A DNA stretch of 64,000 bases. Origin: Pectobacterium wasabiae CFBP 3304. Its GTDB lineage: Bacteria; Pseudomonadota; Gammaproteobacteria; Enterobacterales; Enterobacteriaceae. This document shows, one piece after another, positions 6,973-23,504 of the stretch. A program made the position numbers and the translations under genes. The notes below the pieces were generated by a model, which saw only the letters and a program-made list of their open reading frames with translations, was not told where the DNA came from and searched no databases. Location of the stretch: contig NZ_CP015750.1 of the NCBI RefSeq assembly GCF_001742185.1, forward strand, positions 3,286,001 to 3,350,000, in the 5' to 3' direction. Numbering within the stretch: the stretch's first letter is position 1; every line of letters starts with the position of its first letter.

Positions 6973-9045
6973 GTGATGATGCTGCGTGATTTTCTCCACA
7001 GCCAACACCAGCAACAACGCTATGGCATCCGTCGACTGCTGGTGCTGAGCGGTGAAGCGAGCTGGTGTGAAGCACAGGCGCTGTCGCTCAGTTCTCAGTC
7101 AATTGGCGACTGGCTGTGGATTAGCGAAGACGCGCCGGATTCCGTCACTTCACTTTCTGCCAACCGAGTACGCACGCTGCTAGGGCGGGAGTTTCTCCAT
7201 GCGGTGTTTGATGCGCGTAAAGGCGTGGATGTCGAGGCGTTGGCGATGCTGTCAGGCGCGCTACAGGCCGGTAGCTGGATGATTATGCTGGTGCCGTCGT
7301 GGCCGTCATGGCCGACCTTACCCGATGAAGACAGCCTGCGCTGGAGCGAACAACAACAGTCGATTGCCACCCCGCACTTTATTCAGCATTTTCAGCGCCA
7401 GTTATTGGCCGATAAGGACGTGGTGCTCTGGCAACAGGGGCAGGAATTAGCGATTCGCTCTCTCGCCGAGCGGCCCGACTGGCAGCCTGCGCATGGCGAA
7501 CCGACTGTACGACAGCAGCACGTTCTGCATGAACTGAGTGCCGCCGAATCTGGCATTTTTGTGATTACTGCACCGCGCGGGCGGGGAAAATCAACGCTGG
7601 CGGGTATGCTAACGCAGCGTAGTCGCGGAACCTGCTGGATCACCGCACCCTCACGCGTAGCGGCGGATATCCTGCAACAGCACGCGCGTGCTGATGCGCA
7701 GTTTTGGGCTCCGGATGCGTTATTGGCACATTGTCGCCTTCATGGTGTACCCGATATCAATTGGTTGCTGATTGATGAAGCAGCAGCAATTCCGTCTTCT
7801 CTACTTACGGCACTGTTACCCTACTTTCCCCGTATTCTGATGACCACGACGGTGCAGGGCTATGAAGGCACCGGGCGGGGTTTTTTGCTGAAATTTTGTG
7901 CTGCATTGCCACAGTGGCGGGCGTTTACGCTGGACGATCCGCTGCGCTGGGCGGTTAACGATCCGCTGGAGCGCGTGTTGGATCAGGCGCTGCTGTTCAA
8001 CGAACCTGCCTCGTTTCCTTCTCCGTTGAATCCCATTGCGGGTTCTCTGGCTTTGCCCTCTACCGAACTGGATATCCGAACTGAACGTGCCGTCGACTGG
8101 CTGACACATCCCGAACGTCTGACGTGGTGCTACGCGTTATTGTGTAGCGCACATTACCGTACTTCGCCGCTGGATTTACGCCGTCTTATGGATGCGCCGG
8201 GTATGCACATTGCCAGCGCACAGGTTGCCGATGAGATGTGTGGCGTACTGTGGCTGGTGGAGGAAGGCGGGCTGTCTGCCTCGCTGGCTCATGACGTTTG
8301 GGCTGGGAGGCGACGACCGCGCGGTAATCTGGTGGCCCAATCGCTAGCGGCGCATGCTGGATTGTGGCATGCGCCGACGCTGCGTGCGCGTCGCATCAGT
8401 CGAATTGCGATTGCGTCGTCATCTCGCCGGCGGGGGATAGGGCGAGCATTAATCGCAGAGCAGACACGCGAAGCACAAAAACAGGGGCTGGATTACCTGT
8501 CAGTCAGTTTCGGCTATCAGCCAGATCTGTGGGCGTTCTGGCAGTCGTGTGGGTTTCAACTGGTGCGTATCGGCAGCCATCTTGAGGCCAGCAGCGGTTG
8601 CTACAGCGCGATGGCGGTACTGCCGCTAAGTGAGGCGGGGCATGAACTGGCACAGCAGGGGAGCCAGCAATTGGCGCGTGACTGGTATTGGCTACAGCGT
8701 ATGATTCCGCTGAACCTCGCGCTGCCGCAGACAGAAAATACGGCGCTGGATGCCGAGAATATTGAACTGAATGACGACGACTGGCGTGAACTCGCGGGGT
8801 TTGCCTTTGCACATCGGCCGATGGAGGCCAGCTTCGCTGCGATCTGTCGTCTGCTGATTCATACCCCGTTACCGCTGCTTGCGCTACGTCTGTTGGCGGA
8901 GAAGCCGGGTGACGGTGAGCAAACGTCCACTACGCTGGGGTTAACGGGCAAGAAAGCGCTTTTGAAACGCTGGCGAGAAGAAACTGCCAGTGCGCTAATC
9001 GATCTCGATGCGCAACGGTGCCATGGATGGGTTTCCCGAGTTTAG
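6973..9045 (+). CDS. tmcA: tRNA(Met) cytidine acetyltransferase TmcA
   Basis: Forms N4-acetylcytidine at the wobble base of elongator tRNA-Met, using ATP and acetyl-CoA. An N-terminal DUF1726-like domain is followed by the helicase-like module. That module has Walker A (APRGRGKST, ~residues 200-208), Walker B (LIDEAAAIP) and TTTVQGYEGTGRGF. A GNAT acetyltransferase core follows (RISRIAIASSSRRRGIGRALI), then a tRNA-binding tail. 688-690 residues. The start is uncertain among GTG 6973, ATG 6976 and ATG 6979; the family N-terminus is usually slightly longer. The likely target tRNAs (elongator Met) are encoded in this window at 51563 and 52025. Confidence 0.94.
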   Translation: MMMLRDFLHSQHQQQRYGIRRLLVLSGEASWCEAQALSLSSQSIGDWLWISEDAPDSVTSLSANRVRTLLGREFLHAVFDARKGVDVEALAMLSGALQAGSWMIMLVPSWPSWPTLPDEDSLRWSEQQQSIATPHFIQHFQRQLLADKDVVLWQQGQELAIRSLAERPDWQPAHGEPTVRQQHVLHELSAAESGIFVITAPRGRGKSTLAGMLTQRSRGTCWITAPSRVAADILQQHARADAQFWAPDALLAHCRLHGVPDINWLLIDEAAAIPSSLLTALLPYFPRILMTTTVQGYEGTGRGFLLKFCAALPQWRAFTLDDPLRWAVNDPLERVLDQALLFNEPASFPSPLNPIAGSLALPSTELDIRTERAVDWLTHPERLTWCYALLCSAHYRTSPLDLRRLMDAPGMHIASAQVADEMCGVLWLVEEGGLSASLAHDVWAGRRRPRGNLVAQSLAAHAGLWHAPTLRARRISRIAIASSSRRRGIGRALIAEQTREAQKQGLDYLSVSFGYQPDLWAFWQSCGFQLVRIGSHLEASSGCYSAMAVLPLSEAGHELAQQGSQQLARDWYWLQRMIPLNLALPQTENTALDAENIELNDDDWRELAGFAFAHRPMEASFAAICRLLIHTPLPLLALRLLAEKPGDGEQTSTTLGLTGKKALLKRWREETASALIDLDAQRCHGWVSRV

Positions 9046-9095
9046 TGAAATCTGGTAGGTTGTAAGAACCTTTCTGTCCCGTTCAGGATAAACCG

Positions 9096-9323
9096 ATGCT
9101 GGAATTACGCCCTAACTGTGAACGCTGCGACTGTGATTTGCCGCCGGATGCCGAAACGTACATCTGCTCCTACGAATGTACATTTTGCCCAGACTGTGCG
9201 GATTCCGCATTTCATCACGTCTGTCCGAACTGCGGCGGCGGATTGGTTAAACGGCCGGTGCGCCCAGCACGTTGTCTGGCGAACGATCCGGCCTCAACGC
9301 TCCGTATTATCAAACCACACTGA
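9096..9323 (+). CDS. DUF1272 zinc-ribbon-like protein
   Basis: A 75-residue protein rich in paired cysteines: CERCDC, ICSYECTFCPDC and HVCPNCGGG. This is the pattern of the DUF1272 family and implies bound zinc. It starts MLELRPNCERCDCDLPP, the usual family N-terminus, after a CAGGATAA ribosome site. Function is unknown. It lies 50 bp after tmcA on the same strand, so it could be read through from it. Other frames across it do not show a cysteine pattern. Confidence 0.85.
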   Translation: MLELRPNCERCDCDLPPDAETYICSYECTFCPDCADSAFHHVCPNCGGGLVKRPVRPARCLANDPASTLRIIKPH

Positions 9324-9487
9324 CGGCGCGCATAGCTGATACCCCTCTGTCATTGCAAAAAATGGAACGTCTCGTTCAGTAATTCCCGATTTCTCCTGTC
9401 AGTGTGCGGCGTATAGTGAGAATTAACCGTATTTTATGACGACTGTCGGCAGATGATGCGTTCGCTGCACGACGTCAGGAGAGAAAC

Positions 9488-10105
9488 GTGAATCAAGATT
9501 ATATTGTTGTTCAGCAACCCTCGGAGGCGAATCGTTTAATCCTGCTGTTTCACGGCGTGGGTGATACCGCCGCAGGCATGGCACAGATTGGGCGCTATTT
9601 TGCTGCCGCATTACCGCAGGCAATGGTGATCAGTATTGGTGGGCCGTTCAGTACTGGCTATGGCGATGGGCGGCAGTGGTTCTCTGTTCAGGGCGTGACG
9701 GAAGAAAATCGGTTATCGCGCATTGAAGCAAACCTACCGCGTTTTGTTGAGACTGTGCGTGATTGGCAAGAGCAAACCGGCATTAGCGCAGAACAAACCG
9801 TGCTGGTGGGATTTTCGCAGGGGAGCATTATGTCGCTGGAGGCGCTGAAGTCCGAAGCCCCACTCGCGGGGCACATTATTGCTTTCAGCGGTCGTTTTGC
9901 TGTTTTACCGGAGACTGCATTTGCTGATGTTGTGGTGCATCTGATTCATGGTGAAGCGGACGGTGTCATTGTGGTTGGGCATGCGCATGCTGCTGCTCAT
10001 CGCTTTCAGGAATTGGGGACGTCGTTTACGGTGGATATCGTGCCCGGTGTTGGGCACGGCATTGATGAACGGATGTTGAAGCGGGCGTTAGCCTACCTCA
10101 AATAA
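9488..10105 (+). CDS. ypfH: YpfH-type esterase (alpha/beta hydrolase)
   Basis: Cytoplasmic carboxylesterase/phospholipase-like hydrolase. It shows the oxyanion region LLFHGVGDTAAGM, the nucleophile elbow GFSQGS, the acid segment HLIHGEADGVI and the catalytic histidine in GVGHGID. The 205-residue length is slightly shorter than E. coli YpfH (about 232), lacking its C-terminal tail. The start is GTG at 9488 with AGGAGAG about 5 bases upstream. The native substrate is unknown. Neighbour of tmcA, as in E. coli. Confidence 0.9.
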   Translation: MNQDYIVVQQPSEANRLILLFHGVGDTAAGMAQIGRYFAAALPQAMVISIGGPFSTGYGDGRQWFSVQGVTEENRLSRIEANLPRFVETVRDWQEQTGISAEQTVLVGFSQGSIMSLEALKSEAPLAGHIIAFSGRFAVLPETAFADVVVHLIHGEADGVIVVGHAHAAAHRFQELGTSFTVDIVPGVGHGIDERMLKRALAYLK

Positions 10106-10112
10106 ACGCCAT

Positions 10113-10215
10113 CCCATCGTACTCAAGCGGTTTGTGCGTTGACTTTTCAGGCCAGCGCACTGCGTTATTCAAAACGAACTCGTTTTGTCCTGAAACTCGA
10201 ATTATTTAGGGTATA
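10113..10215. repeat. Degenerate ERIC element carrying a truncated hairpin module
   Basis: The right end TCGAATTATTTAGGGTATA is intact at 10198-10215; the left end near 10113-10140 is a decayed form of the ERIC terminus. Between them lies the distal part of the hairpin module, GCGCactGCG and AAAACGA/TCGTTTT followed by GTCC (10145-10190). It sits 7 bp after ypfH. The rest of the gap, up to the chemoreceptor at 10451, is AT-rich; I see no gene in it, only a TGAACGTTCA palindrome at 10380-10389. Confidence 0.75.
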
Positions 10216-10450
10216 GACGATATCTCATCAGATTATCTTATTGGTTATTTTGATAACTAATACGGCCTGCATATAGTAAAATTAGAATATATATTTTCAG
10301 ATGTGATATTTTATCCATATTAAAGATAATATAATCCATATCGGGATGTTAAATAATATCGGCAATGTTTTGATTTGTGTTGAACGTTCAATATTTCCCC
10401 TCTTTTTTCGGATATAACTATTACATCCTTATGGAAAAAGAGGGTGTGCC

Positions 10451-12121
10451 ATGTTTAAACGTATTAGAGTGATAACCATCCTTGTTATTCTCTTGTTTGT
10501 ATTAGGTGTATCTCAATTTTTAACCGGGGCGCTATCCGTTCGGGCATTGATGAACGATAAAGAGAGTTTCCTTGTTTCTCAACGCTCTAACCAGAATGTG
10601 GCCGCCTTTACCGATGCCTGGATTATGATGAATCAGACACGCATCGCTATTGGTTCTATTATACAAAACATGATGATGGGGAATGCGGATAAAGAGGCCA
10701 TGCAGGCACTCTTACAGCAGGCCAAATCGCAATTGGTCGCTTCAGAGAATAGTTATAAATATTATTTGTCCCTGCCTAATACGCCCGGATTGGATGAGTC
10801 ATTATCTAAAAAACTTGAGGCGAGTTATGTCGCCTACGATAAGCTGCTGAATGATATTGTGGATTCACTTTCCGGTGGGTTAGCGGGGGCTGCGATGAAA
10901 TTGAGCAGTGGGGCGACGCCGTTTAACGTGGCGATGCAGGATGCCTATATTACGTGGCGTGCGGCCCAAAACCAACTGTCGGACGACGGCTTACAGGAAA
11001 ACCACGTCGCGTTTGAAACGATGCTGTGGCTTTTAGGCGCACTCTCTGTGGTTGTCGTGCTGGTGATTATCCTTAGTTGGATCGGATTGCAGCGTATTCT
11101 TTTACATCCGCTGCGCACGCTCATGCGGCATATCAGCGCCATTGCCGAAGGTAATCTAACGCAGCATATTGATACTAGTGGCCGTAATGAGATGAGCCAA
11201 CTGGCGGCGGGTCTGCACCATATGCAGCAGTCATTAACCCGTACCGTGAGTTTGGTGCGCGACAGTTCCCACTCCATCCACTCAGGAGCCAGTGAAATTT
11301 CGGCTGGCAGTAATGACCTGTCTTCGCGCACGGAGCAGCAGGCCGCCTCGTTACAGGAAACCGCTGCCAGCATGGAACAGCTTACCTCAACGGTGAAGCA
11401 GAATTCAGACAACGCGCGTCAGGCCACGTTGCTGGCAAAAAGTGCGTCAGAGACGGCGAATAAAGGGGGCGTTGTGGTCAATAACGTCGTGAAAACGATG
11501 GATGAGATCGCGGATAGCTCACGAAAAATCGCCCACATTACCAGCGTGATTGATGGTATTGCTTTCCAAACCAATATTCTGGCGCTGAATGCGGCGGTTG
11601 AAGCGGCGCGTGCCGGAGAGCAAGGACGCGGCTTTGCCGTGGTGGCGGGCGAAGTGCGCACGCTAGCACAGCGCAGTGCGCAGGCCGCAAAAGAGATCAA
11701 AGTGCTGATCGATGATTCGGTTAGCCGGTCCAATACCGGTTCTTTACAGGTGAAAGACGCGGGCGATACGATGAAGGAAATCGTCAGTGCCGTGAGCCGG
11801 GTAACGGATATCATGGGCGAAATCGCATCGGCCTCGGACGAGCAGAGTCGGGGGATTGATCAGGTTGGGCAGGCGGTTAATGAAATGGATCGTGTCACGC
11901 AGCAAAACGCCTCGCTGGTTGAGGAATCGGCTTCTGCCGCCGCGGCATTAGAAGAGCAGGCCAGATTTTTGCAGAACGCCGTTGAGGTGTTCAAAATTAA
12001 TCAGTCGGCTGCGCAGGAACAGCGTGTGGCGAGTGCTCCTTCTCTGGCTGCATTACCGAAATCGCTTCTGCCCAAATCCACCTCCGCTGGTTCATCGAAT
12101 GCGAATTGGGAAACGTTTTAA
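10451..12121 (+). CDS. Methyl-accepting chemotaxis protein (Tar/Tsr type)
   Basis: Complete 556-residue transmembrane chemoreceptor. TM1 is at ~8-30, a periplasmic four-helix ligand domain at ~31-190 and TM2 at 191-213. A HAMP domain (~214-266) precedes the cytoplasmic methylated helical bundle. The signalling tip FQTNILALNAAVEAARAGEQ is at ~372-391. The C-terminus ends NWETF, the pentapeptide that tethers CheR and CheB in major receptors. The ligand cannot be told from sequence. The ATG follows AAAGAGGGTG. No neighbouring chemotaxis genes: a stand-alone receptor gene, common in soft-rot bacteria, which carry many. Confidence 0.95.
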   Translation: MFKRIRVITILVILLFVLGVSQFLTGALSVRALMNDKESFLVSQRSNQNVAAFTDAWIMMNQTRIAIGSIIQNMMMGNADKEAMQALLQQAKSQLVASENSYKYYLSLPNTPGLDESLSKKLEASYVAYDKLLNDIVDSLSGGLAGAAMKLSSGATPFNVAMQDAYITWRAAQNQLSDDGLQENHVAFETMLWLLGALSVVVVLVIILSWIGLQRILLHPLRTLMRHISAIAEGNLTQHIDTSGRNEMSQLAAGLHHMQQSLTRTVSLVRDSSHSIHSGASEISAGSNDLSSRTEQQAASLQETAASMEQLTSTVKQNSDNARQATLLAKSASETANKGGVVVNNVVKTMDEIADSSRKIAHITSVIDGIAFQTNILALNAAVEAARAGEQGRGFAVVAGEVRTLAQRSAQAAKEIKVLIDDSVSRSNTGSLQVKDAGDTMKEIVSAVSRVTDIMGEIASASDEQSRGIDQVGQAVNEMDRVTQQNASLVEESASAAAALEEQARFLQNAVEVFKINQSAAQEQRVASAPSLAALPKSLLPKSTSAGSSNANWETF

Positions 12122-12224
12122 CTGAGGAGTTGTGCTGCTGGCTAAAAAAAGCGGGCTGTTGATAAAACTATTTACTGAACGAAAACGGCAGTAACGGAAT
12201 AGAAGAGTAAAGCGTTTGCGCCAT

Positions 12225-12303
12225 GGACAAAGGCGTCAGGAATGCCTTTGAACGTCGCTTGCGACGGCCCTGAAAGGGTGAATCTCATCCCTGAGATTCA
12301 TAT
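12225..12303. repeat. Multi-hairpin repeat module, solo intact copy
   Basis: Minus-oriented complete copy. On the plus strand it runs GGACAAAGGCGT/ATGCCTTT, then CGTCGC/GCGACG, CCCT/AGGG and GAATCTCA/TGAGATTC. It has the same order of four stems as the copies inside ERIC elements at 27082, 45769 and 45902, but with no ERIC ends here. The rest of the 12122-12403 gap shows no gene. Confidence 0.75.
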
Positions 12304-12403
12304 TCGCGCAATCCGAGCTTACATGGACGTACTTGCAGCGTCTTTACGATCTATCCGTTACTACCGCTTTACTGCCTTTGTTGTTTTAACTGGCCAACCC
12401 GCT

Positions 12404-13582
12404 TTAAACGCGTTCGATAATCATGGCGATACCTTGCCCACCGCCGATGCACAGCGTTGCCAACCCCAGCGTTTTGTTATAGCTGTGCAGCGCATGTACC
12501 AGCGTGACGAGAATACGCGCACCGCTCGCGCCGATAGGGTGACCCAACGCAATTGCACCGCCGTTAACGTTCACCTTTTCTGGGTCGAGCTGGAGATCGC
12601 GCTGTACCGCTAGGAACTGTGCTGCAAAGGCTTCATTGGCTTCAATCAGGTCGATATCACCGATGGTCAACCCAGCCTTGAGCAGTGCTTTCTGCGTCGC
12701 CGGAATCGGCCCCAGCCCCATCACTTCACTCGGTACGCCAGCAGACGCCCAACTGCGGATCCGCGCTAGCGGGGTAATGCCCTGTTTTTTCGCTTCGGAT
12801 TCACGCATTAATACCAGCGTTGCGGCGGCATCGTTAATGCCGGACGCATTTCCTGCGGTGACAGTGCCGTTCGCGGAGAATGCCGGACGTAACGCCGCCA
12901 GCGATGCCAGCGTAGTGTCTGCGCGAGGGAATTCATCCCGATCGAAAATCCGCGTCTCTTTTTTGCTGCGCAGCGACAGCGGGGTAATTTCTGCCTTGAA
13001 GCGGCCAGCTTCAATCGCGGCGACGGCTTTCTGCTGCGATGCTAGCGCGACCTGATCCTGTTCTTCGCGGGTGAGCTGATAGCGCTCGGCGATATTTTCC
13101 GCCGTGGTGCCCATGTGGTAATCGTTAAACGCACACCACAGACCATCGTTAATCATGATGTCGACGAGCTTGCCATCCCCCATCCGATAGCCGTGGCGCG
13201 CTTTTTCCAGCAGGTAAGGCGCAGCGCTCATGTTTTCCATCCCGCCCGTCACGCAGACGTGATTATCGCCGGACAGAATAGACTGTGCGCCCAGCACAAC
13301 GGCTTTCAGGCCGGAGCCGCATACTTTGCTGACGGTCAGCGAGGGCGTTTCAACGGCGATACCGGCGGCCTGGCTGGCCTGGTGCGCCGGGTTTTGTCCC
13401 AGACCGGCTTGCAGCACGTTGCCGAGAATCACTTCATCGATCGCCAGCGTGTCTGGCAGCGTTGACAGACAGTCACGGATGGTGGCAGAGGCCATCTCGA
13501 TAGCAGAGGTGTTGGCCAGACTGCCTGCAAATTTACCAATCGCCGTGCGCTTGGCATTAACAATAACAACGGAGTCGTTCAT
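12404..13582 (-). CDS. Thiolase (acetyl-CoA C-acyltransferase)
   Basis: Cleaves a 3-oxoacyl-CoA with CoA, or condenses two acyl-CoAs. The 392-residue protein carries the nucleophilic C88 (VSKVCGSG), H348 ([12 protein letters not shown]) and the acid/base C378 (LCIGGGQG). It resembles AtoB-type acetoacetyl-CoA thiolases, but PcaF-like specificity cannot be excluded from motifs alone. It is the last gene of the minus-strand operon, starting 11 bp after atoA. Placement after a CoA transferase implies thiolysis of the CoA ester which that enzyme makes. A convergent chemoreceptor gene lies beyond. Confidence 0.93.
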
Positions 13583-13593
13583 GATCGCCTCGA

Positions 13594-14241
13594 TTAATGA
13601 ATACTGAAGGGTTTTACATCGGCGGACACGATGAAGTTCGCCTCGGTTTTTTGGCGCAGTTCGTCCACGGTGATGTCAGGGCTGATTTCAATCAGCACCA
13701 TTTGCCGGTTGATAAATTCGAAGACGGCTAACTCAGTGACGACCATGCTGACTTTATTGGCGGCAGTCAGCGGGTAGGTGCATTGGTGCAATAACTTCGC
13801 ATCGCCATTTTTGGCGCAGTGCTCAAGGGCGATGATGACCTTCTTGGCACCGACAACCAGATCCATCGCGCCGCCCATGCCGGGCACCATTTTCCCCGGC
13901 ACCATCCAGTTGGCGAGGCTGCCGTGTTCATCGACCTGCAAGCCGCCCAGTACGCAGACATCAACATGGCCGCCGCGAATCAGCGCAAAAGAAAAAGCGC
14001 TGTCGAACATCGCAGCACCCGGCACCATGCCGCATGCCTGACCCCCGGCGTTAACCAGATTGCCATCCGGCTCGGTAACCGCACCGAGCCCCAAAAAGCC
14101 GTTCTCCGATTGGAAAGTGACTTCGATGCCGTGCGGCACGTAATTCGCCACTTTGGTGGGTAAGCCAATGCCTAAATTCACCACATCGCCGTTTTTCAGT
14201 TCCAGTGCAACGCGGCGGGCGATTAATTCTTTCGCATCCAT
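13594..14241 (-). CDS. atoA: 3-oxoacid CoA-transferase subunit B (AtoA-like)
   Basis: Catalytic beta subunit of a family I CoA transferase. The active-site glutamate is visible as E46 in FQSENGFLG. The length is 215 residues. A longer frame opens at 14334, but the start at 14241 overlaps the atoD stop by one base (TAATG), the signature of translational coupling, and matches the family N-terminus ([15 protein letters not shown]). It pairs with the AtoD-like subunit upstream. The physiological acceptor acid is not determined; acetoacetate is the E. coli AtoDA substrate, other 3-oxoacids are possible. Confidence 0.93.
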
Positions 14242-14897
14242 TATTTCTCTCCCAAATAAAGGTGATCGACCAGTGCCGCTGGGGTGACAATACATTCCGG
14301 CGCCAGTTGGCCAACCGGAATAACCTGTTCGCATTGCGCCACGACTTTCTTCGCGGCCAGCGCAATAAGTGGGTTAAAGTTACGGGCGGTGAGGTGATAA
14401 ATAAGGTTTCCGCTGGTGTCGGCAATGCTGGCCTGTAATATGGCGAGATCTGCCTTAATAGGCAGTTCTAATAAATAGGTAATATCGTTAATGGTTATTT
14501 TTTGTTTATTTTCTTCGACGATGGTGCCAACGCCGGTCGGTGTCAGGAAACCGCCTAAGCCCGCGCCGCCGCTACGAATACGCTCTGCCAACGTCCCTTG
14601 TGGAACGAGCTCTACATCAAGTTCACCGGAGAGCATACGACGACCGGTTTCCGGGTTCGTACCAATATGCGAGGTAATCAGTTTTTTTACCTGACCGCTG
14701 ACAATTAACGGCCCAACGCCGGTATCGACAAACCCAGTGTCATTTCCAATCAGGGTTAAATCAGAGACGCCGGATTTAATGATTTCATCTACCAATAATT
14801 TCGGTGTTCCGACGCCCATAAAACCACCGAACATAATTGCCATTCCGTCAAATAAATAAGAACGAAAATGGCTGGCATCAATGACTTTATTATTCAT
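14241..14897 (-). CDS. atoD: 3-oxoacid CoA-transferase subunit A (AtoD-like)
   Basis: Alpha subunit of the CoA transferase. It has 218 residues with the glycine-rich segment [10 protein letters not shown] near residue 25 and [16 protein letters not shown] near 110, both typical of the AtoD/PcaI group. It ends LYLGEK and its stop overlaps the atoA start. It begins 150 bp after the small AtuA C-terminal-type gene, a gap that holds one hairpin and no obvious terminator T-tract. It therefore probably belongs to the same transcript. Confidence 0.93.
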
Positions 14898-15002
14898 TGT
14901 GTTTTTACTCTGAAAGTTGTTGCTCTGAAAATGGCCGCACGGATCCCGCAGGCAATAAATACCCGTTAATCGTAGCGGCGAGTGTTAATTATTTAGGGGC
15001 AG

Positions 15003-15028
15003 AGGGTGGATTAATGCAATGCCACCCT
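15003..15028. other. Intra-operon hairpin
   Basis: Perfect 7-bp stem AGGGTGG/CCACCCT with a 12-base loop in the 150 bp gap before atoD. No T-tract follows in either direction, so it may be a processing or stability element rather than a terminator. Confidence 0.4.
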
Positions 15029-15047
15029 GATATTCCCATTAGCTAAA

Positions 15048-15347
15048 TTAAATATCGATATCCAGTATGGCTGAACTTAGTCCTTTGCCGTGCATGTCCA
15101 GCGCCAGCGAGCGGGTTACGCCGCCGCCGAGTGCGCCATACATGACGAAGTTCAGTGCACCGATGCTGGGTAACTCATAGCGAACCACATCACCCGTCAC
15201 GATATCGGCGAACCAGGATTTCACTTTTTCGGCAGTGATCTTCTCTTTCAGCACGTCATAATCTTCCGCACGGTAAGCAATCAGTGAAATATTGGAGGTA
15301 TTTCCTTTATCGCCGGTACGAGAGTGAGCAATTTCACGCAGTTTCAT
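15048..15347 (-). CDS. Small AtuA-associated protein (AtuA C-terminal ferredoxin-fold type)
   Basis: A 99-residue protein with N-terminal HSRTGDKGNTSNISLIAY, the hallmark block of the domain found at the C-terminus of fused AtuA proteins. It continues with GALNFVMYGALGGGVTRSL. Its start overlaps the stop of the 446-residue AtuA-like gene by one base (TAATG), so the two are translationally coupled and probably form a complex. In fused homologues, as I recall them, both parts sit on one chain. Function is unknown, presumably catabolic. Despite the fold name, no cysteine cluster for an iron-sulfur centre is present. Confidence 0.85.
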   Translation of the reverse strand: MKLREIAHSRTGDKGNTSNISLIAYRAEDYDVLKEKITAEKVKSWFADIVTGDVVRYELPSIGALNFVMYGALGGGVTRSLALDMHGKGLSSAILDIDI

Positions 15348-16687
15348 TATTTAATCTCCAGATAATCAACGGCTGGTGTGACGCAGGCGCGAGACAGCAG
15401 GGTGGAATCCATCGCCAGTATTTCTTTTACCGCTTTGTTAACGCCGCCGCCGCCTGCCGGGCCATTGGTATAAAGCGTTTCAACTTCGTTACCCACTTTC
15501 ACCGCCTGTGCTCTGGAGGTGCAGCGTGCTGCGACGCGAGCGCGAACTTCATACGGTTCACTGCTTTGCGACCGCTGTGCACCGTGCAATGAATCAACGC
15601 CGATCAGGTCGTAGCGCACTTCCTGAGGATCAAGCTGGCATAGTGCAAAACGTCCTTTGACGATATCCAGCGCTAAACGACCACGCGCTACCGCACCAGG
15701 ACCGGCGTAGGAAATTTCCCCTTCGCCGATAAACCCATCCTGATAGCCGACAGACACTTTCAGCGTGTCGGTTTTTGCCCGACCGGTTGCTCCCTGTACA
15801 CGCACGCGGTTTTCACCGTCTTGCGTAAAGGTGACGTGGCTGAAATCGGCAATCACGTCCGGGGTGATGTAGCTGTCTGGGCGATGGATTTCGTACAGCA
15901 ATTGTTCTTTGCAGGTATCCACACAGACGCAGCCACCGGAACCTTCAACTTTGGTAATCACAGCGCTACCATCTTCGGTAATTTCCGCGATCGGGAAGCC
16001 CAGACGGTCAAGGTTGGGGATATCTTTAACGCCGGGATCGGCATAATAACCGCCAGTAATTTGTCCCGCGCATTCCAGCAAGTGGCCGAGGCAGGTGCCT
16101 TTGCCCAGACGATCCCAGTCATCGGCAGCCCAGTCGAATTCATACATCATCGCGGACAGGAACAGAGAGGGATCGGAAACGCGGCCAGCGATAATCACGT
16201 CTGCACCCTGACGCAACGCTTCAACCAGCGCATCCGCACCCAGATAGGCATTGGCGGAAAGAATGTCTTTACCGCAGCGTGAAACAGGTTGGCCAATCTC
16301 ATCCAATTTAGAATCTTGTGCGATCAGCACCGAGTGCACATCGTCACCAGTGACAATTGCAATCTTCAGCTTGTCTGCACCCAGTTCCTTGGCGATTTCC
16401 AATACGCGCTGACCGGCGGCGACAGGGTTAGCTGAGCCCATATTGGTGATGATTTTAATACCTTTTTCCAGGCAAAGCGGCAGCACGGCGTGCATACGGT
16501 CGGCCAGCAGTTCGTTGTAGCCTTTTTCCGGGTTCTGCTGCTTCTGCTTTTGACCGATGGCGATAGTACGTTCCGCCAGACATTCAAATACCAGATACTG
16601 AATGTCGCCTTTTTGAGCCAGTTCTACGGCCGGTTCGATGCGATCGCCGGCATAGCCAGCCCCGGAACCAATACGAATTGTTTTCAT
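15347..16687 (-). CDS. AtuA/DUF1446 family protein
   Basis: A 446-residue cytoplasmic protein of the family named after AtuA of the acyclic terpene utilisation pathway. Recognisable blocks are IRIGSGAGYAGDRIEPAVEL at the N-terminus, DRMHAVLPLCLEKGIKIITN, GADVIIAGRVSDPSLFL and the glycine-rich TNGPAGGGGVNKAVKE near the end. The enzymatic activity of the family is not established. Coupled to the small gene downstream and 61 bp after the CitMHS transporter, so it likely acts on the imported acid before the CoA transferase step. I do not infer terpene catabolism: no acyl-CoA carboxylase or dehydrogenase genes are nearby. Confidence 0.88.
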   Translation of the reverse strand: MKTIRIGSGAGYAGDRIEPAVELAQKGDIQYLVFECLAERTIAIGQKQKQQNPEKGYNELLADRMHAVLPLCLEKGIKIITNMGSANPVAAGQRVLEIAKELGADKLKIAIVTGDDVHSVLIAQDSKLDEIGQPVSRCGKDILSANAYLGADALVEALRQGADVIIAGRVSDPSLFLSAMMYEFDWAADDWDRLGKGTCLGHLLECAGQITGGYYADPGVKDIPNLDRLGFPIAEITEDGSAVITKVEGSGGCVCVDTCKEQLLYEIHRPDSYITPDVIADFSHVTFTQDGENRVRVQGATGRAKTDTLKVSVGYQDGFIGEGEISYAGPGAVARGRLALDIVKGRFALCQLDPQEVRYDLIGVDSLHGAQRSQSSEPYEVRARVAARCTSRAQAVKVGNEVETLYTNGPAGGGGVNKAVKEILAMDSTLLSRACVTPAVDYLEIK

Positions 16688-16748
16688 AAGCTTACCTTTA
16701 TCAATGAAATGTGTCTGTTGGCGTAATCAATGGGAAACCGTATGTTCC

Positions 16749-18071
16749 CTACAAGGGGAAGACCCCGAAGATGACGCAGGCGAACGTCATGATGACGCTA
16801 GCGGCCCAGAGCACAGGAATAGAGAATTTCTGGTGGTCGGCGAGATCGACACCCGCCAGGCTGACCAGCAGGAATGTTGCCGGCGTGAGCGGGCTAACCG
16901 GGAAGCCGGTGGTCATCTGTCCTAATACGGAAGCCTGCGCAACCTGAATCGGCGGTACGCCCAGCATATCCACGGTGTGAGCAATGACTGGCATGATGCC
17001 GAAGTAGTACGAATCAGGATCGAACACCAGACTCAGCGGCATGGAGATCAGGCCGACGATGAACGGGATGTGGGAGGCAAAAGATTCCGGCACAAAGCTG
17101 ACTGCCGAGAGCGACATGGCTTTCAGCATACCAGTACCGCTCATAATGCCGGTGAAGGCACCCGCAGCGAACAAGATACTAGCCATCATCAGTGCCGCTT
17201 TGGCATGGGCGTTAATGCGTTCTTTTTGCATTTCAACGTTGGGGTAGTTGAACATCAGCGCCAGCGTCAGGGCGATCATAAAGGCGACCGTTGGTGAAAT
17301 TTTGGTAAACACCATGGTGCCGATAACGGCAAGAACCAGCGCAATGTTGACCCAAAACATCTTCGGACGACGCAGTACTTTTTCCGCATCGGTCAGCTCT
17401 TTCACATGCACTTCAGCCGTGATGGATTGCGTACCACCCGCCAGCGGATTACCCGATGCCAATCCCAGACGCTTCTCTTCTTTCTTACCCCAGTAATAGC
17501 CCATGAGCACCATGAAGGTCAGGCCGCAAACCTGTGCGGGGATAAGTGGAATGAACAGGTCGTGCGTAGTGGTGTTTAACGCGGCGGCGGCGCGGATCAT
17601 CGGCCCAGTCCACGGCAGGAAGTTAACACCAGCGCTGAGTGCGGTAATCCCGACCAGAATGCGCTTATCCATGCCGAGTTTATCAAACAGTGGCAACATC
17701 GCGGGAATGGTGATCAGGAAGGTGACGGCACCGTTACCGTCCAGGTGCGCAATCAGTGCTAACACGCCCGTGCCGATAATGATTTTGACCGGGCTGGTGC
17801 CGACCATGCGTAAGATCCCTTTGATAATAGGATCAAACATACCGGCATCGGTGACCACACCGAAGAAGGCGATGGCAAAAACAAACATCGCCGCCATCGG
17901 TGCCAGTTTGGTGATGCCGTCCACCACGTATTTTGCGGTATCGGTGCCGCTACCTGCGGCGAGCGCACCGAGAACCGGAATAACGATAAGCGCCACCAGA
18001 GGCGACATTCGCTTTGTCATGATGAAAAATAGCAGGGTAGCTATGGTGAGCACCCCGATGAGAGCTAACAT
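16749..18071 (-). CDS. CitMHS family metal-citrate type transporter
   Basis: A 440-residue integral inner-membrane protein with about 12 predicted helices, beginning MLALIGVLTIATLLFFIMTK. Conserved CitMHS blocks are HLDGNGAVTFLITIPAMLPL, SAGVNFLPWTGPMIRAAAAL and FDPDSYYFGIMPVI. Family members import citrate or related hydroxy-acids as complexes with Mg or Ca, together with protons. It is the first gene of the minus-strand operon, divergent from a LysR gene, so substrate uptake and the following AtuA/CoA-transferase/thiolase enzymes are probably induced together. The exact substrate is unknown. Confidence 0.92.
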   Translation of the reverse strand: MLALIGVLTIATLLFFIMTKRMSPLVALIVIPVLGALAAGSGTDTAKYVVDGITKLAPMAAMFVFAIAFFGVVTDAGMFDPIIKGILRMVGTSPVKIIIGTGVLALIAHLDGNGAVTFLITIPAMLPLFDKLGMDKRILVGITALSAGVNFLPWTGPMIRAAAALNTTTHDLFIPLIPAQVCGLTFMVLMGYYWGKKEEKRLGLASGNPLAGGTQSITAEVHVKELTDAEKVLRRPKMFWVNIALVLAVIGTMVFTKISPTVAFMIALTLALMFNYPNVEMQKERINAHAKAALMMASILFAAGAFTGIMSGTGMLKAMSLSAVSFVPESFASHIPFIVGLISMPLSLVFDPDSYYFGIMPVIAHTVDMLGVPPIQVAQASVLGQMTTGFPVSPLTPATFLLVSLAGVDLADHQKFSIPVLWAASVIMTFACVIFGVFPL

Positions 18072-18552
18072 AAGAACTCCTCATTAGTATAATTGTATGT
18101 TGCCTATTTGTTTCATTTACAATAAATTAAACAACTCAATAACAATCCATGTAATAATTAACAAATAAAAATGAATGCCTACCCCAGAGTCATTTGATTT
18201 TTTGCCTGCACTATTTTTATCACCCCTATCCCTCTTTATACTAACTCGTAATCGAAATGGTTTTATTCGTAAATCTGATGGGTTTATTTTATTTGTTAAA
18301 AGCATTAATTATTCTGTTTTTCTTATTAATGGTTAATTGGTTGATTTGCTTTGTATAGTTAGGTCTTTTTGCTTAATTGTTTTTTATGATTTGTGATATT
18401 TATCTAGCATGTTCATTTTTATGAGTGGCGCGCGTTGTTTGAATGGAATTAAATAAATGCGGGAAGGATCATAAAAATAGGAGTTGCTGTTTTTTTCTAT
18501 TGAGTTTGTTCCTTTCTTACTGGAGACTTCATTTTATTTATATAAAAACACT
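18072..18552. other. AT-rich divergent regulatory region
   Basis: The 481 bp between the transporter and lysR starts are strongly AT-rich and hold no convincing gene. They must contain both promoters and the LysR operators. A CRP-like half site TGTGA (18392) followed by TCTAG is visible but weak. I could not single out one LysR box with confidence. Confidence 0.5.
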
Positions 18553-19452
18553 ATGAACTTATCGATAAAACAATTACGGGCCTTTATCGCGTTGACGGAA
18601 ACCGATAATTTCACACGTGCCGCTCAGAAAATAAATTTATCTCAGCCGGCATTTAGTTCGCTCATTGCCGGGTTAGAAGAAGAGGTCGGCTATCGGTTAT
18701 TTGACCGTGATACACGCAAAGTACAGCTCAATGCAGACGGGATCCATTTCATTGATATTGCCCGTCGGCTGGTGCAAACCCATGACGATGCCGTCGGTGA
18801 GATCAAGTCTTATGCCACGGGGTATAAAGGAAATATTGTGCTGGCGGTGCTACCGTCAATGGCGGTGAAATGGTTGCCCCAGGTGCTAGCACAGTATCAC
18901 CGCGCTTATCCCAAAATTAAGGTTGAACTGCTGGATACGCAGTGGGATCGCTGCCTGAAAGCCGTGCTGGATGGTCGTGCCGATCTGGCGCTGACGGCAG
19001 GGCAACCATCACCGGGAACGTTCAGCTCCCGTATGCTGTTTGCCGACAGTTTTTATCTGATCTGCCATAATTCGCATCCGCTGGCGGGGCGCGACAGCGT
19101 TGATGTGACTGATGTGGTGCAGTATCCGTTTGTTGGGTTCTGCAAAGGCACCAGCATCAGGCAGTACACCGATCAGCTTATTGAACCGGAAGGTTTTAAC
19201 TACGTGCTGGAAGTGCGCCAGTTGACCACCATGATGGGGCTGGTGGCGGCAGATTATGGCGTGAGTATTGTGACGGGGCTGACGCTGTTCCAGTTCCAGC
19301 ACAAAGATATTGCGATTATTCCGTTTCGGGATTTATCGCTGCAGCGCGGCATCTATCTGGTGACGGATAGGGAGCGCCAACTGTCAGTGTGCGCGAAAGA
19401 GTTTTATGATTTTCTTCTGGATAGGGCGGAAAGTTTTGTTCCCGCCGCGTGA
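18553..19452 (+). CDS. LysR-family transcriptional regulator of the citMHS-atuA operon
   Basis: A 299-residue LTTR with an N-terminal winged HTH (MNLSIKQLRAFIALTETDNF, then AAQKINLSQPAFSSLIAGLE) and a periplasmic-binding-protein-like effector domain from ~90. An open frame starts at 18484, but the ATG at 18553 gives the canonical LTTR N-terminus. Divergent from the transporter operon, the classic arrangement for a regulator that activates its neighbour in response to an imported acid or an intermediate. Effector unknown. Confidence 0.93.
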   Translation: MNLSIKQLRAFIALTETDNFTRAAQKINLSQPAFSSLIAGLEEEVGYRLFDRDTRKVQLNADGIHFIDIARRLVQTHDDAVGEIKSYATGYKGNIVLAVLPSMAVKWLPQVLAQYHRAYPKIKVELLDTQWDRCLKAVLDGRADLALTAGQPSPGTFSSRMLFADSFYLICHNSHPLAGRDSVDVTDVVQYPFVGFCKGTSIRQYTDQLIEPEGFNYVLEVRQLTTMMGLVAADYGVSIVTGLTLFQFQHKDIAIIPFRDLSLQRGIYLVTDRERQLSVCAKEFYDFLLDRAESFVPAA

Positions 19453-19456
19453 GGAT

Positions 19457-19503
19457 CCAAACCGCCTGCGGCGTGGGGCTTAGCTCACGTACAGGCGGTT
19501 TGG
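19457..19503. terminator. Long inverted repeat between convergent lysR and ypfN
   Basis: Perfect 12-bp arms CCAAACCGCCTG (19457-19468) and CAGGCGGTTTGG (19492-19503) around a 23-base loop. It lies immediately after lysR and before the ypfN stop, so it may end both transcripts. No clear T-tract. Confidence 0.5.
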
Positions 19504-19515
19504 CGATGACGGGTA

Positions 19516-19710
19516 TCAGCGTTTTTTCTGCGGCCAGTCGTCGTCTTCTTCATTGTCCCATTTGTCGTTGTTGTCACGATGCGGGGGCAATTTCGGTTTG
19601 TTGAGTAGAAAACGCGTATGGTCAACGTTGCGCAATTCTTTGATGCCGTTAATCAGCATGCCTATCAGGATAACCAGAATTATCCACCAGTAATCAGCCA
19701 GCCATGCCAT
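19516..19710 (-). CDS. ypfN: YpfN, UPF0370 small membrane protein
   Basis: A 64-residue protein: one N-terminal membrane helix ([16 protein letters not shown]), then a charged, acidic C-terminal tail ([17 protein letters not shown]). This matches the UPF0370/YpfN family. Function unknown. It starts 2 bp after the M15 peptidase stop, so it is the last gene of yffB-dapE-M15-ypfN. In E. coli ypfN follows dapE directly. Confidence 0.93.
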
Positions 19711-19712
19711 GG

Positions 19713-20387
19713 TTACGCCTCATCAACGTTATGAATGTAACGGGTAAACAGTTGCGACAAGTGCTGGCGAAGCCAGTCATGGCCGGCAATATCTTCATCT
19801 TGCCAGGCGACAAGGATGAGGTCAGGAGTCAACTGTTCTTCCGCATACTGTGCTAATGGATAATAGCTGATATGCCAGGGTTCGACTGCGACCCCGCCGA
19901 GATCGTGCGCATAAGGCCGATAAAAACCATATTCATGCATGTGCGCACTCAGCCACGCATTCAGTGCGGAAAAATAACCACCTTCTTCATATTCCCACGG
20001 CTCCAACTGGAGCGAACTGCCTGTGGGTAATAAATCAGGATCGTAAATATCAAGATCGCTGCCCCAATGGTGACGACTGGATCCGGGCATGGCAGACCAA
20101 CGCAGAATCGCTTCACAACGCTCGCCGTCGTCCAGAGACGAGATATCTAGCGGTTGGCTGTTGGCATCCATGACGGGACGTTCGCCGCGAAACTTACTAT
20201 TCCAGATTTGACGCTGGCGCTCGAAATCACGAAACGTGCTGGCAGGCTGTAGGTTGAATCCTGCCGTTTTTGCCGCCTGCTGTAACGCCAGAAACGCGGT
20301 TACCGCCTCCGGTTGAAGACGATGACGGCCGTGCAAAGCGACCAAATGCTGGTCGCTTTTACCGGTTAACATAGCTGGCGTCATCAT
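19713..20387 (-). CDS. M15 family metallopeptidase (VanY-type D,D-carboxypeptidase-like)
   Basis: A 223-224 residue protein with the two zinc signatures of the family: [12 protein letters not shown] (SxHxxGxxxD, ~residues 104-115) and EPWHISY (ExWH). The family cleaves D-Ala-D-Ala type peptides. I see no signal peptide from the chosen start, so the substrate could be a cytoplasmic muropeptide. The start at 20387 or 20384 overlaps the dapE stop (ATGA), meaning coupled translation. An earlier in-frame Met at 20456 lies deep inside dapE and is unlikely. This gene is inserted between dapE and ypfN relative to E. coli. Confidence 0.87.
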
Positions 20388-21511
20388 GCGATGAGCTGCT
20401 CCATAATGCGCTGGTACATCCGGCTTAGCAGTTGCAGGTCTGCCGCGCTGACGCATTCGTCCACTTTATGGATCGTGGCGTTGACGGGGCCGAGTTCAAC
20501 CACCTGTGCACCCATGCGAGCAATGAAACGGCCATCGGAGGTGCCGCCATTCGTCAGCAGTTCTGGGGTAACTTCGTTGTAATGCTTGACAGCATTTACT
20601 ACGGCATCGACCAGTTCGCCGCGTGCGGTCAGGAATGGCTGGCCGGAGAGTTTCCAGTCGATGGTGTAATTAAGCTGGTGGCGATCCAGTAATTCCGCTA
20701 CACGCTGCTGGATTAATACATCCGTTAATTCGGTGCTGAAACGGAAATTAAATTGCACAAACAGTTCGCCGGGGATGACGTTATTGCTGCCAGTGCCCGC
20801 CTGAATATTGGCGATTTGCATGGTGGTTGGTGGGAAGAAATCATTACCCCGATCCCACTCGGTGGCGATCAGCTCGTTGAGTGCCGGAGTTGCACGATGA
20901 ACAGGGTTGTCTGCCAGATGCGGATAAGCAACGTGCCCTTGCACGCCGTGTACGCGTAGATTCGCGGTGATAGAGCCACGACGGCCGTTTTTCACCACGT
21001 CGCCCACGACATGCGTACTGGACGGTTCGCCGACCAGACAGTAGTCCAACCGCTCGTTACGTGCCATCAGCGCATCAACTACTTTTACAGTACCGTTAAC
21101 AGCACTGGCTTCTTCGTCCGACGTAATCAGAAACGCCAGACGCCCCTGATGGTTGGGGTGAGCGGCGACGAACCGCTCGGCGGCAATCACCATGGCGGCC
21201 AGTGAACCTTTCATGTCTGCCGCGCCGCGGCCGTACAACATGCCGTCACGAATGATGGGTTCAAACGGCGGATGCTGCCAGTGTTTTTCATCGCCGCTGG
21301 GAACCACGTCGGTGTGTCCGGCGAAGGCCAGCGTTTTTCCGGTGCCGCGCCATGCCCAGAAATTTTGGGTATCGCCAAAATCCATCGCTTCGACGGTAAA
21401 GCCGATCGCCGTCAGGCGTTCAATCATGAGCGCCTGACAGCCCTCGTCGTTCGGGCTGAGGGAAGGGCGTTTAATTAACTGTTGAGCAAGCTCTATGACT
21501 GGGCAAGACAC
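20384..21511 (-). CDS. dapE: Succinyl-diaminopimelate desuccinylase
   Basis: Dinuclear zinc hydrolase that releases succinate from N-succinyl-LL-diaminopimelate in the lysine pathway. Metal ligands are visible in [27 protein letters not shown] and [11 protein letters not shown], with the C-terminal NATIHKVDE. 375 residues. The family start [12 protein letters not shown] is reached with the GTG codon at 21511, which lies one base after the yffB stop. An upstream Met at 21580 would extend into yffB and is not conserved. It supplies the same pathway as dapA at 3519. Confidence 0.96.
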
Positions 21512-21512
21512 G

Positions 21513-21890
21513 TTATTTGTTCTCCGCAATAAATTTCTGATAGCTATCGATACTAAACCCAAGCAGTGCATTACCGTCATCGGTAATCAGTAAAGGCCGT
21601 TTAATCACCGCTGGCTGTTCCAGCATCAGATTTTTGGCGGCCTCTGCGCTGTCGCGGGTATCGCTATTGATCTGTTCACGCAGTTCTTCACTGAGTTTAC
21701 GCCAGGTCGTTCCGCGCGTGTTGAGTAAGGCCTGAAACCCCAGTTGGTCGATAAAACGCTGTAGCTGCTGTTCATCCAGACTATCGGCACGGTAATCATG
21801 GAAGTGGTACGCCACCTGTTGATCCTCCAGCCAGCGGCGCGCTTTCTTGATGGTGTCACAATTTTTAATGCCGTACATAGTCAGCGCCAT
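21513..21890 (-). CDS. yffB: YffB, ArsC-family thioredoxin-fold protein
   Basis: A 125-residue member of the ArsC/Spx-like family with the N-terminal cysteine motif [15 protein letters not shown] and the conserved [12 protein letters not shown] and [17 protein letters not shown]. Arsenate reduction is not shown for this subfamily; glutathione-dependent thiol chemistry is suggested. The start at 21890 ([11 protein letters not shown]) fits the family; an open frame runs back to 21983. First gene of the dapE operon. Confidence 0.92.
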
Positions 21891-22064
21891 AGGGGTAAAA
21901 TCCTTCTGCTTATTGATTTGCATGACGATTGCTGTGTCGAACAGCATAGCCTCACAGGGCTCGATCGTGCGATAGCCCAGCATGCCGAAAAAAGGCGGGG
22001 AGATCTACTGTGAACTGTGTGGCAGAAATAGACGCCAGTACACTTTTTATACTTTCATAACACT

Positions 22065-22093
22065 TTTACCTGATTAAAAAGTGTGCGTATAAT
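22065..22093 (+). promoter_or_regulatory. Sigma-70 promoter of ypfM
   Basis: A perfect -10 TATAAT (22088-22093) with a partial -35 TTTACC (22065-22070) and a 17-base spacer, about 30 bp before ypfM. Confidence 0.75.
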
Positions 22094-22122
22094 ATGTCGC
22101 CGTTAATCACCAAGAGGTTCAC

Positions 22123-22182
22123 ATGGTAGAAGTAGAAGTAAGCACTTGGAAAGATTTTATTGAAGCAATGTTACGCAAATAA
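22123..22182 (+). CDS. ypfM: YpfM microprotein (19 residues)
   Basis: A 19-codon frame encoding MVEVEVSTWKDFIEAMLRK. Its second half (WKDFIE.MLRK) matches the E. coli small protein YpfM as I remember it; the N-terminal acidic part varies. It has an AAGAGG ribosome site 6 bases before the ATG, a consensus promoter upstream and a strong terminator 50 bp downstream, so it is a self-contained monocistronic unit. It also sits beside yffB, as in E. coli. Function unknown. Confidence 0.88.
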   Translation: MVEVEVSTWKDFIEAMLRK

Positions 22183-22233
22183 TAACGAGAAGTACCGATA
22201 GTCATTGCATACCAGGAATAAAATCATACGAAT

Positions 22234-22267
22234 AAGCAGTATTGAGTCTCTCAATACTGCTTTTTTT
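22234..22267 (+). terminator. Rho-independent terminator of ypfM
   Basis: Perfect 13-bp stem AAGCAGTATTGAG/CTCAATACTGCTT with a 3-base loop, followed by TTTTTT. Confidence 0.93.
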
Positions 22268-22347
22268 CTATGTAAAAAGAGGAAACCTGAGTAAATAAAA
22301 GAGGCTATTATTAGCTAGCGTGCGAATTTTATTTTTCTCTATTTAAT

Positions 22348-23058
22348 TCATAGTGATGACTGATTAAGTGCGAATTTCGCTGCGGCAATCGCGTGGAGCT
22401 TGCTGGTATCAAAAAGAGGAACTTTCGCATCCTGGGCACTGATTAACAGCGGGATCTCCGTACAGCCAAGAATGATACCTTCCGCACCTTGCTGTTCAAG
22501 CTGCTGGATGATGTCCCGATAAGCTTGCCGCGAGGTGTCGTTAATGTTCCCTAGGCACAGTTCGTCATAAATGATGCGATTAACTAATTCTTTCCCCTTC
22601 GTGTCGGGAACAATCACATCCACGCCAAACCGTTCCTGAATTCGCTGACGATAAAAGTCTTGCTCCATCGTGTAGCGGGTGCCAAGCAAACCGACTTTCT
22701 TCAATCCGTGTTGTTTCAGGCTGGCACCGGTAGCATCGGCAATATGTAAAAGGGGAAGTTGACTGGCGTGTTCGACCTCATCAGCGACTTTATGCATAGT
22801 GTTAGTACAGATGACGATAGCGTCTGCCCCCGCCTGACGTAATCCTATGGCGATATTACCCAGCACGATAGCGGCTTGCGCCCAATCCCCCTGTGACTGC
22901 AATTGTTCTATCTCGTGAAAATCAACGCTGTGAAGGATGATTTTGGCGGAGTGCAGGCCACCCAGTTGGTTTTTCACATACTCATTGATAATGCGGTAAT
23001 ACGGGATAGTGGATTCCCAACTCATACCCCCGATCAGACCCAGCGTTTTACTTACCAT
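22348..23058 (-). CDS. Aspartate/glutamate racemase family protein (YgeA-like)
   Basis: A 236-residue cofactor-independent amino-acid racemase. The N-terminal signature GLIGGMSWESTIPYY is present. The two catalytic cysteines sit in VICTNTMHKVA and ILGCTEIPLL, as in broad-specificity YgeA/RacD enzymes. The start at 23058 (MVSKTLGLIGG) follows a GGGAGAC ribosome site; an earlier Met at 23181 would add a tail that is not part of the family. It stands alone between ypfM and cspE. Substrate not predictable from motifs. Confidence 0.9.
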   Translation of the reverse strand: MVSKTLGLIGGMSWESTIPYYRIINEYVKNQLGGLHSAKIILHSVDFHEIEQLQSQGDWAQAAIVLGNIAIGLRQAGADAIVICTNTMHKVADEVEHASQLPLLHIADATGASLKQHGLKKVGLLGTRYTMEQDFYRQRIQERFGVDVIVPDTKGKELVNRIIYDELCLGNINDTSRQAYRDIIQQLEQQGAEGIILGCTEIPLLISAQDAKVPLFDTSKLHAIAAAKFALNQSSL

Positions 23059-23276
23059 AGTGTCTCCCTTCGATATCATAAAAAGTAATGAACCAGCCAG
23101 AACTGAACTCTCTGTGCTCTGCATCGGGTTAAAATAGGACAACCGAGTTATCAGGTATACATTTTTAGCGACTTTTATCACTTTTTATCCAACTTCAACT
23201 GGACAAAAGGTCAATCTATTGTTGTACTGTACCTGACACAGATTTTGTGTCTTTCATTCATGTAAAGGTAAGTTTG

Positions 23277-23486
23277 ATGTCTAAGATTAAAGGTAGTGTT
23301 AAGTGGTTTAATGAGTCGAAAGGCTTCGGTTTCATTACTCCAGAAGACGGTAGCAAAGATGTGTTCGTACACTTCTCTGCAATCCAGAGCAATGGTTTCA
23401 AAACTCTGGCTGAAGGTCAGCGTGTAGAGTTCGAAATCACTGATGGTGCCAAAGGTCCTTCTGCTGCTAACGTTAACGCTATTTAA
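23277..23486 (+). CDS. cspE: Cold-shock-domain protein CspE
   Basis: A 69-residue single cold-shock domain with both RNA-binding motifs, [11 protein letters not shown] (RNP1) and VFVHFSAIQ (RNP2). The sequence ([16 protein letters not shown]) is closest to CspE/CspC rather than CspA. RNA chaperone and antiterminator in the cytoplasm. The start at 23277 has AAGGTAAG upstream. Neighbours crcB and tatE, as in E. coli, support the cspE assignment. Confidence 0.95.
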
Positions 23487-23504
23487 TTATACCGATTTCG
23501 TGAA

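Follow-up and report, generated by a model that had tools for sequence, protein, structure and literature searches.

Within a 64,000-nucleotide stretch of the Pectobacterium wasabiae CFBP 3304 genome (hereafter the window; positions 3286001-3350000 of the genome's single 5.04-Mb contig), six minus-strand genes that lie divergent from a LysR-type regulator gene probably form a catabolic unit for 3-hydroxy-3-methylglutarate (HMG) as the free acid. HMG, which can be regarded as a citrate analogue with a methyl group replacing the central carboxylate, would be imported by the CitMHS transporter and cleaved to acetoacetate and acetate by a CmlAB-kind lyase composed of the AtuA protein and its PF23544 partner. 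An AtoDA-type CoA transferase would then move coenzyme A (CoA) from acetyl-CoA to acetoacetate, and thiolase would split the resulting acetoacetyl-CoA into two acetyl-CoA, giving HMG + CoA -> acetyl-CoA + 2 acetate overall; HMG or a product would be the signal to which the LysR protein responds in governing the operon. This proposal draws on gene content, the fold match of predicted models and co-occurrence with CoA transferase, from which we infer the substrate, the order of the steps and the regulation. A first-pass annotation of the same DNA had conjectured hydroxy-acid import, conversion to a 3-oxoacid by the AtuA pair, CoA transfer and thiolysis, all of which is consistent with our results; the panel of carboxylates that it put forward as candidate substrates omits HMG, our best candidate. 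The features of the locus are as follows.

12404..13582, minus strand: thiolase of the acetyl-CoA C-acetyltransferase type (392 amino acids; TIGR01930, 462.9 bits, cut-off 240.55)
13594..14241, minus strand: 3-oxoacid CoA-transferase subunit B (215 amino acids; TIGR02428, 305.6 bits, cut-off 243.55)
14241..14897, minus strand: CoA-transferase subunit A, AtoD type (218 amino acids; NF007394, 384.7 bits, cut-off 315)
15048..15347, minus strand: putative small lyase subunit, AtuA ferredoxin-like family PF23544 (99 amino acids; 130.4 bits, cut-off 27, E 4.8e-38)
15347..16687, minus strand: putative large lyase subunit, AtuA/PF07287 (446 amino acids; 539.9 bits, cut-off 22.8, E 5.7e-162)
16749..18071, minus strand: CitMHS transporter of the citrate:proton symporter family, presumed HMG importer (440 amino acids; TIGR00784, 414.5 bits, cut-off 259.7)
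18072..18552, no strand: putative divergent promoter/operator region (28% G+C)
18553..19452, plus strand (divergent): LysR-type regulator (299 amino acids; PF03466 and PF00126)

All seven genes named in the first-pass annotation are present, and each has a strong family match. In the direction of transcription, the minus-strand genes encode CitMHS, AtuA, the small protein, CoA-transferase subunits A and B, and thiolase. The gaps between them run from -1 to 61 bases, with the exception of 150 bases (14898-15047) between the small-protein and CoA-transferase A genes, where no minus-strand terminator-like site was found. The small-protein gene overlaps the AtuA stop by 1 base, and CoA-transferase B starts at the ATG at 14241 with a 1-base overlap with the stop of subunit A; in the profile scans its start was 6 bases too long and the LysR start 3 bases too short. 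Judged from spacing alone, the six genes appear to be cotranscribed.

The downstream half of the operon points to acetoacetate as the product of the AtuA pair, because CoA-transferase subunit A scores above the AtoD equivalog cut-off and is the single TIGR02429 match across the source genome, and because thiolase completes the known acetoacetate route. The best model for the thiolase is PRK05656 (528.5 bits, under its cut-off of 688), while TIGR01930 is the sole model over its cut-off among the 25 listed of 43 matching. The same pairing of an AtoD-type CoA transferase with a thiolase is found in Escherichia coli atoDAEB, an acetoacetate operon with the AtoSC system; in the window, by contrast, the transferase and thiolase are grouped with the presumed lyase and CitMHS importer next to a LysR gene. 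Were a different substrate cut, such as citrate or a longer 3-hydroxy-3-alkylglutarate, the product would not be acetoacetate. CitMHS is named for citrate and the neighbours of AtuA relatives vary, as such a reading would have it, yet it has a slim chance of being right: subunit A passes the AtoD cut-off, citrate would yield oxaloacetate, which bypasses AtoDA and thiolase, and longer chains would require extra beta-oxidation genes where the operon has thiolase alone. Citramalate and citrate were both rejected as the operon substrate, since neither pyruvate nor oxaloacetate needs an AtoDA-type transferase and a thiolase.

If AtuA makes acetoacetate, a 3-oxoacid CoA transferase is predicted even where its genes are unlinked to the AtuA core. 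We examined this in 44 genomes of one family, which includes Zophobihabitans, by counting TIGR02429 matches over cut-off. AtuA was present in seven of the 44, and all seven carried such a match, compared with 2/37 of the AtuA-less genomes (two more matched below cut-off). Fisher p was 9.4e-7, or 2.3e-6 for the 39 more complete genomes, in both cases without correction for common ancestry. The coordinates place the AtuA and CoA-transferase genes next to each other in only one of the seven (G140), so linkage does not account for the co-occurrence. A whole-genome check of 14 of the 80 AtuA loci described below likewise gave TIGR02429 over cut-off in 14/14, although seven of these have a linked copy and eight are genomes above 4 Mb, large enough that a match would be no surprise.

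The predicted folds indicate that the AtuA protein and its small partner are most likely a lyase that cuts HO-C(R)(R')-CH2-COO(-) acids to a ketone and acetate. Modelled singly, both proteins had PDB entry 9evf as their top match, to chains A and B (CmlA/CmlB): the AtuA model shares the CmlA fold over 411 residues, and the small-protein model shares the CmlB fold over 90 residues. The lyase reading follows from this match of both subunits and from the tentative listing, in the available portion of PMC4847356, of the terpene AtuA as an acetate-releasing lyase. As far as their entry titles and molecule names tell, 9erq and 9evf contain a PF07287 member deposited as citramalate lyase subunit A, and the title of 9evf names pyruvate and adenosine diphosphate (ADP). 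Clostridial citramalate lyase forms pyruvate and acetate (PMC4682846), consistent with the pyruvate in that title. The first-pass annotation held the AtuA activity to be undescribed, which these deposited titles and the terpene paper, as far as its available text goes, contradict. Citramalate and the terpene AtuA substrate each bear HO-C(R)(R')-CH2-COO(-), and the lyase reading would thus join three proposed substrates: citramalate, isohexenylglutaryl-CoA and HMG. It would also turn a family labelled 'acyclic terpene utilization', 'DUF1446' or 'ABC transporter substrate-binding protein' into testable acetate-releasing lyases. The last of these labels is the database name of the Pectobacterium actinidiae AtuA (P0001), where it is probably a misnomer.

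Like the window pair, CmlA/CmlB (9erq, 9evf) combines a PF07287 large subunit with a second subunit of about 100 amino acids, and CmlA and the window AtuA have the GRxxDP and LLEC/ILEC motifs in common at an identity of 15% (structural) to 23% (profile). The CmlB small subunit belongs to DUF4387 (PF14330), whereas the window small protein has PF23544 as its only profile match and none to DUF4387. A profile comparison of the small protein with the CmlB family barely aligned (prob 4.3); we discarded a sequence link between the two, which are connected by fold alone. No second full-length fold for AtuA was found in the VIA list, and this was given no evidential weight. In Creative Commons-licensed PubMed Central, no paper describing 9erq or 9evf was among the matches listed, and the combination of DUF4387, citramalate and AtuA gave no match.

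The fold match of each subunit to its CmlAB counterpart raises the question of whether the pair is itself a CmlAB-like citramalate lyase, forming pyruvate and acetate from citramalate. We consider this very improbable, as its products would require neither CoA transferase nor thiolase, PF23544 stands in place of the CmlB-type DUF4387, and inspection by eye of the reading frames listed for 9000-23500 of the window, the flanks of the operon included, showed no methylaspartate-pathway neighbours. Close relatives of the 9erq CmlA/CmlB pair occur elsewhere in a glutamate mutase - methylaspartate ammonia-lyase cluster (L106, 8788-10475; genome G239), where the CmlA relative is surrounded by B12-binding, MutL, MutE, methylaspartate ammonia-lyase and fumarase genes; the window pair sits instead in a CitMHS-CoA transferase-thiolase operon. 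Database names sometimes label CmlA '3-methylaspartate ammonia-lyase'.

With the AtuA pair releasing acetate and leaving acetoacetate, the substrate would be HMG, an assignment we reach by exclusion and by a parallel with the genus Snodgrassella. In the available text of PMC11343714, S. alvi depletes bee-secreted HMG in the bee gut (five of five strains tested), grows at a 3.52-fold higher rate when HMG is added to citrate, and forms acetate from HMG via steps that are not annotated. Five loci of the genus (L029, L030 and L032-L034; L030 is a bin titled Neisseriaceae that our genus search takes in) carry LysR and all six genes, with AtuA 72-74% identical to that of the window. AtuA was found in 11/14 Snodgrassella-genus genomes, among which the strains of PMC11343714 are not identifiable. 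A C2-only pathway fits an organism without a glyoxylate shunt, such as Snodgrassella. Assigning Snodgrassella HMG breakdown to the AtuA operon is our own link and a candidate explanation, one that would supply named genes for the gap in HMG breakdown that PMC11343714, in its available text, leaves in S. alvi.

HMG-CoA lyase (MvaB/LiuE, NF004283) would also act on the HMG unit and lead to acetoacetate. It belongs to a different family from the AtuA pair and releases acetyl-CoA rather than acetate. None was found over cut-off in the source genome, where the best NF004283 score was 64.6 bits against 246. Phrases for HMG lyase, degradation, utilization or catabolism had no match in Creative Commons-licensed PubMed Central. 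HMG is listed among rhizobial exo-metabolites in the available part of PMC6630823, which we did not use as evidence.

The gene neighbourhoods of AtuA relatives bear on the order of the steps. We compared 80 named loci, the best 80 of 571 confirmed AtuA relatives, with neighbours called by tblastn thresholds; contig ends cut some loci, so linked counts are lower bounds. The small gene directly follows AtuA in 80/80 loci and CitMHS precedes AtuA in 56, a layout that is not due to chance, and a divergent LysR gene is present in at least 51. The CoA-transferase A and B pair was found in at least 17 loci and thiolase in at least 15, every one of them among those 17. All six genes, with or without LysR, occur in at least 15 loci, and LysR with all six in at least 12. 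The conserved unit is AtuA with the small protein, usually joined by CitMHS, and the CoA-transferase and thiolase genes are an add-on. Accordingly, the first-pass expectation that the six-gene set is conserved across genomes holds for this core; the full set was ruled out as the conserved unit.

These counts also bear on a CoA-first order in which HMG is first converted to HMG-CoA by the CoA transferase and then cut by the AtuA pair into acetoacetyl-CoA and acetate, with thiolase ending the route. The substrate would still be HMG, the net equation is identical (HMG + CoA = acetyl-CoA + 2 acetate), and cleavage of a CoA ester has been proposed for the terpene AtuA. Nevertheless, we regard this order as unlikely. 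The transporter accompanies AtuA and the small gene in 56 of the 80 loci and CoA transferase is linked as well in only 17 of those, which makes AtuA look like the first enzyme; moreover, to judge from the entry title, the structure of CmlA/CmlB, which has this fold, was determined with ADP and free pyruvate.

Cleavage of free HMG by the AtuA pair ahead of CoA transfer thus remains our preferred order, and several points weigh against the HMG proposal as a whole. CoA transferase is missing from the stretch searched in 63/80 loci (some cut by contig ends), so the AtuA substrate there may differ. The single solved homologue found is about 15% identical and named for citramalate, and the window small subunit and CmlB fall in different Pfam families, with the profile probability of 4.3 given above. 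Within Pectobacterium, AtuA is patchy (14/24 genomes, source genome included), and three of the 14 Snodgrassella-genus genomes lack an AtuA match (completeness not given). The authors of PMC11343714, in its available text, do not tie HMG use to these genes.

The AtuA fold may have a more general chemistry. As a doubtful extension, AtuA-fold enzymes could be a general class of lyases that need no CoA and, helped by a nucleotide, cut HO-C(R)(R')-CH2-COO(-) acids via an acyl phosphate, in which case HMG would give acetoacetate and acetyl phosphate, or ATP (adenosine triphosphate) would be regenerated from ADP. Just two observations lead to this variant. The title of 9evf includes ADP, a hint that a nucleotide takes part in the reaction, and in the Rhizobium wenxiniae locus (L038) thiolase is followed on the same strand by genes for acetate kinase (TIGR00016) and phosphate acetyltransferase (PRK05632), both over cut-off. 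Members of both clusters also follow thiolase in L039, and L049 has an acetate kinase near thiolase. If true, CoA-free HMG degradation with substrate-level phosphorylation would be common to plant- and insect-associated bacteria.

The window pair also differs from the terpene system whose family name it bears. According to the available text of PMC4847356, the PF07287 protein of that system is predicted to release acetate from a 3-hydroxy-3-alkylglutaryl group, and the Thauera protein has 615 amino acids, whereas the window has two separate genes. PF07287 and PF23544, in that order, are fused in the more distant L021 and L022 proteins (605 and 616 amino acids; 36-37% identical). P0060 (537 amino acids) was rejected as a fusion of this kind and is, by eye, an internal AtuA duplication. 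The geranyl-CoA carboxylase, isohexenylglutaconyl-CoA hydratase and acyl-CoA synthetase of atu clusters are not among the seven genes, with the flanks inspected by eye only.

AtuA is present in one copy in the source genome. Among named sequences, those closest to the window AtuA come from Pectobacterium (proteins 98 and 97% identical, loci 99 and 97%), and the search that found AtuA across that genus returned it from 0/16 other genomes of the order. PF07287 was matched in 10/295 evenly sampled genomes of the order, two of them (G239 and G279) with the distant CmlA type, and a near-identity search of E. coli genomes gave no match. Among the named matches listed, carriers include the insect-gut bacteria Snodgrassella, Gilliamella, Zophobihabitans and Entomohabitans and the plant-associated Pectobacterium and Brenneria.

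The add-on genes vary among loci. Five linked thiolases were scanned: PRK05656 was the best model in the window, L029 (Snodgrassella) and L038 (Rhizobium), in each case below cut-off, while L049 matched BktB (PRK09051) over cut-off and L048 matched PRK06954 below cut-off. These differing models suggest that thiolase was recruited repeatedly beside AtuA; in L049, other genes separate it from the CoA transferase. Seven of the 24 CitMHS-less loci (L054, L066, L079, L080, L092, L096 and L104) have a TctC-type cluster after the small gene, a call made on a single scanned member (L080, PF03401 tricarboxylate-binding receptor). In ten others (L046, L052, L055, L056, L059, L069, L070, L072, L073 and L077), AtuA and the small gene lie beside an amidase-type cluster, of which both scanned members (L046 and L052) are PF01425; the substrate is possibly used there in amide- or ester-linked form. 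A further cluster is often found at the amidase-type loci; the single member of it that was scanned (L069) is DUF2848 (PF11010).

The divergent layout suggests that LysR regulates the operon. In the intergenic region, the window and three relatives agree well over the CitMHS-proximal part, and promoter-like matches are no commoner than in shuffles. Over the operon region, promoter-like sites numbered 4 versus 6.7 in shuffles and terminator-like sites 15 versus 8.1, with 11 of the 15 on the plus strand. The word TTTCAATT occurs between LysR and CitMHS in 17 of the 47 loci compared (the window, which lacks it, and 46 relatives), where any 8-mer reached at most 10 in 20 shuffles. We dropped it as evidence of a LysR operator, as 13 of its 17 carriers are Burkholderiales or Pseudomonas. 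A possible LysR operator, ATTTCAATTG/ATTTCAATTT, is common to the LysR-CitMHS regions of relatives including L057, L062, L074 and L082, and the window holds the loosely similar TTGTAAATGAAAC.

Within the operon, the 150-base gap contains, by eye, an inverted repeat (GGTGG...CCACC) that may be a regulatory hairpin or a repetitive extragenic palindromic (REP)-like element. Convergent with the operon end, a long plus-strand open reading frame at 10451-12121 resembles, by eye, a methyl-accepting chemotaxis receptor, and a protein of equal length comes after thiolase in L025 and L026.
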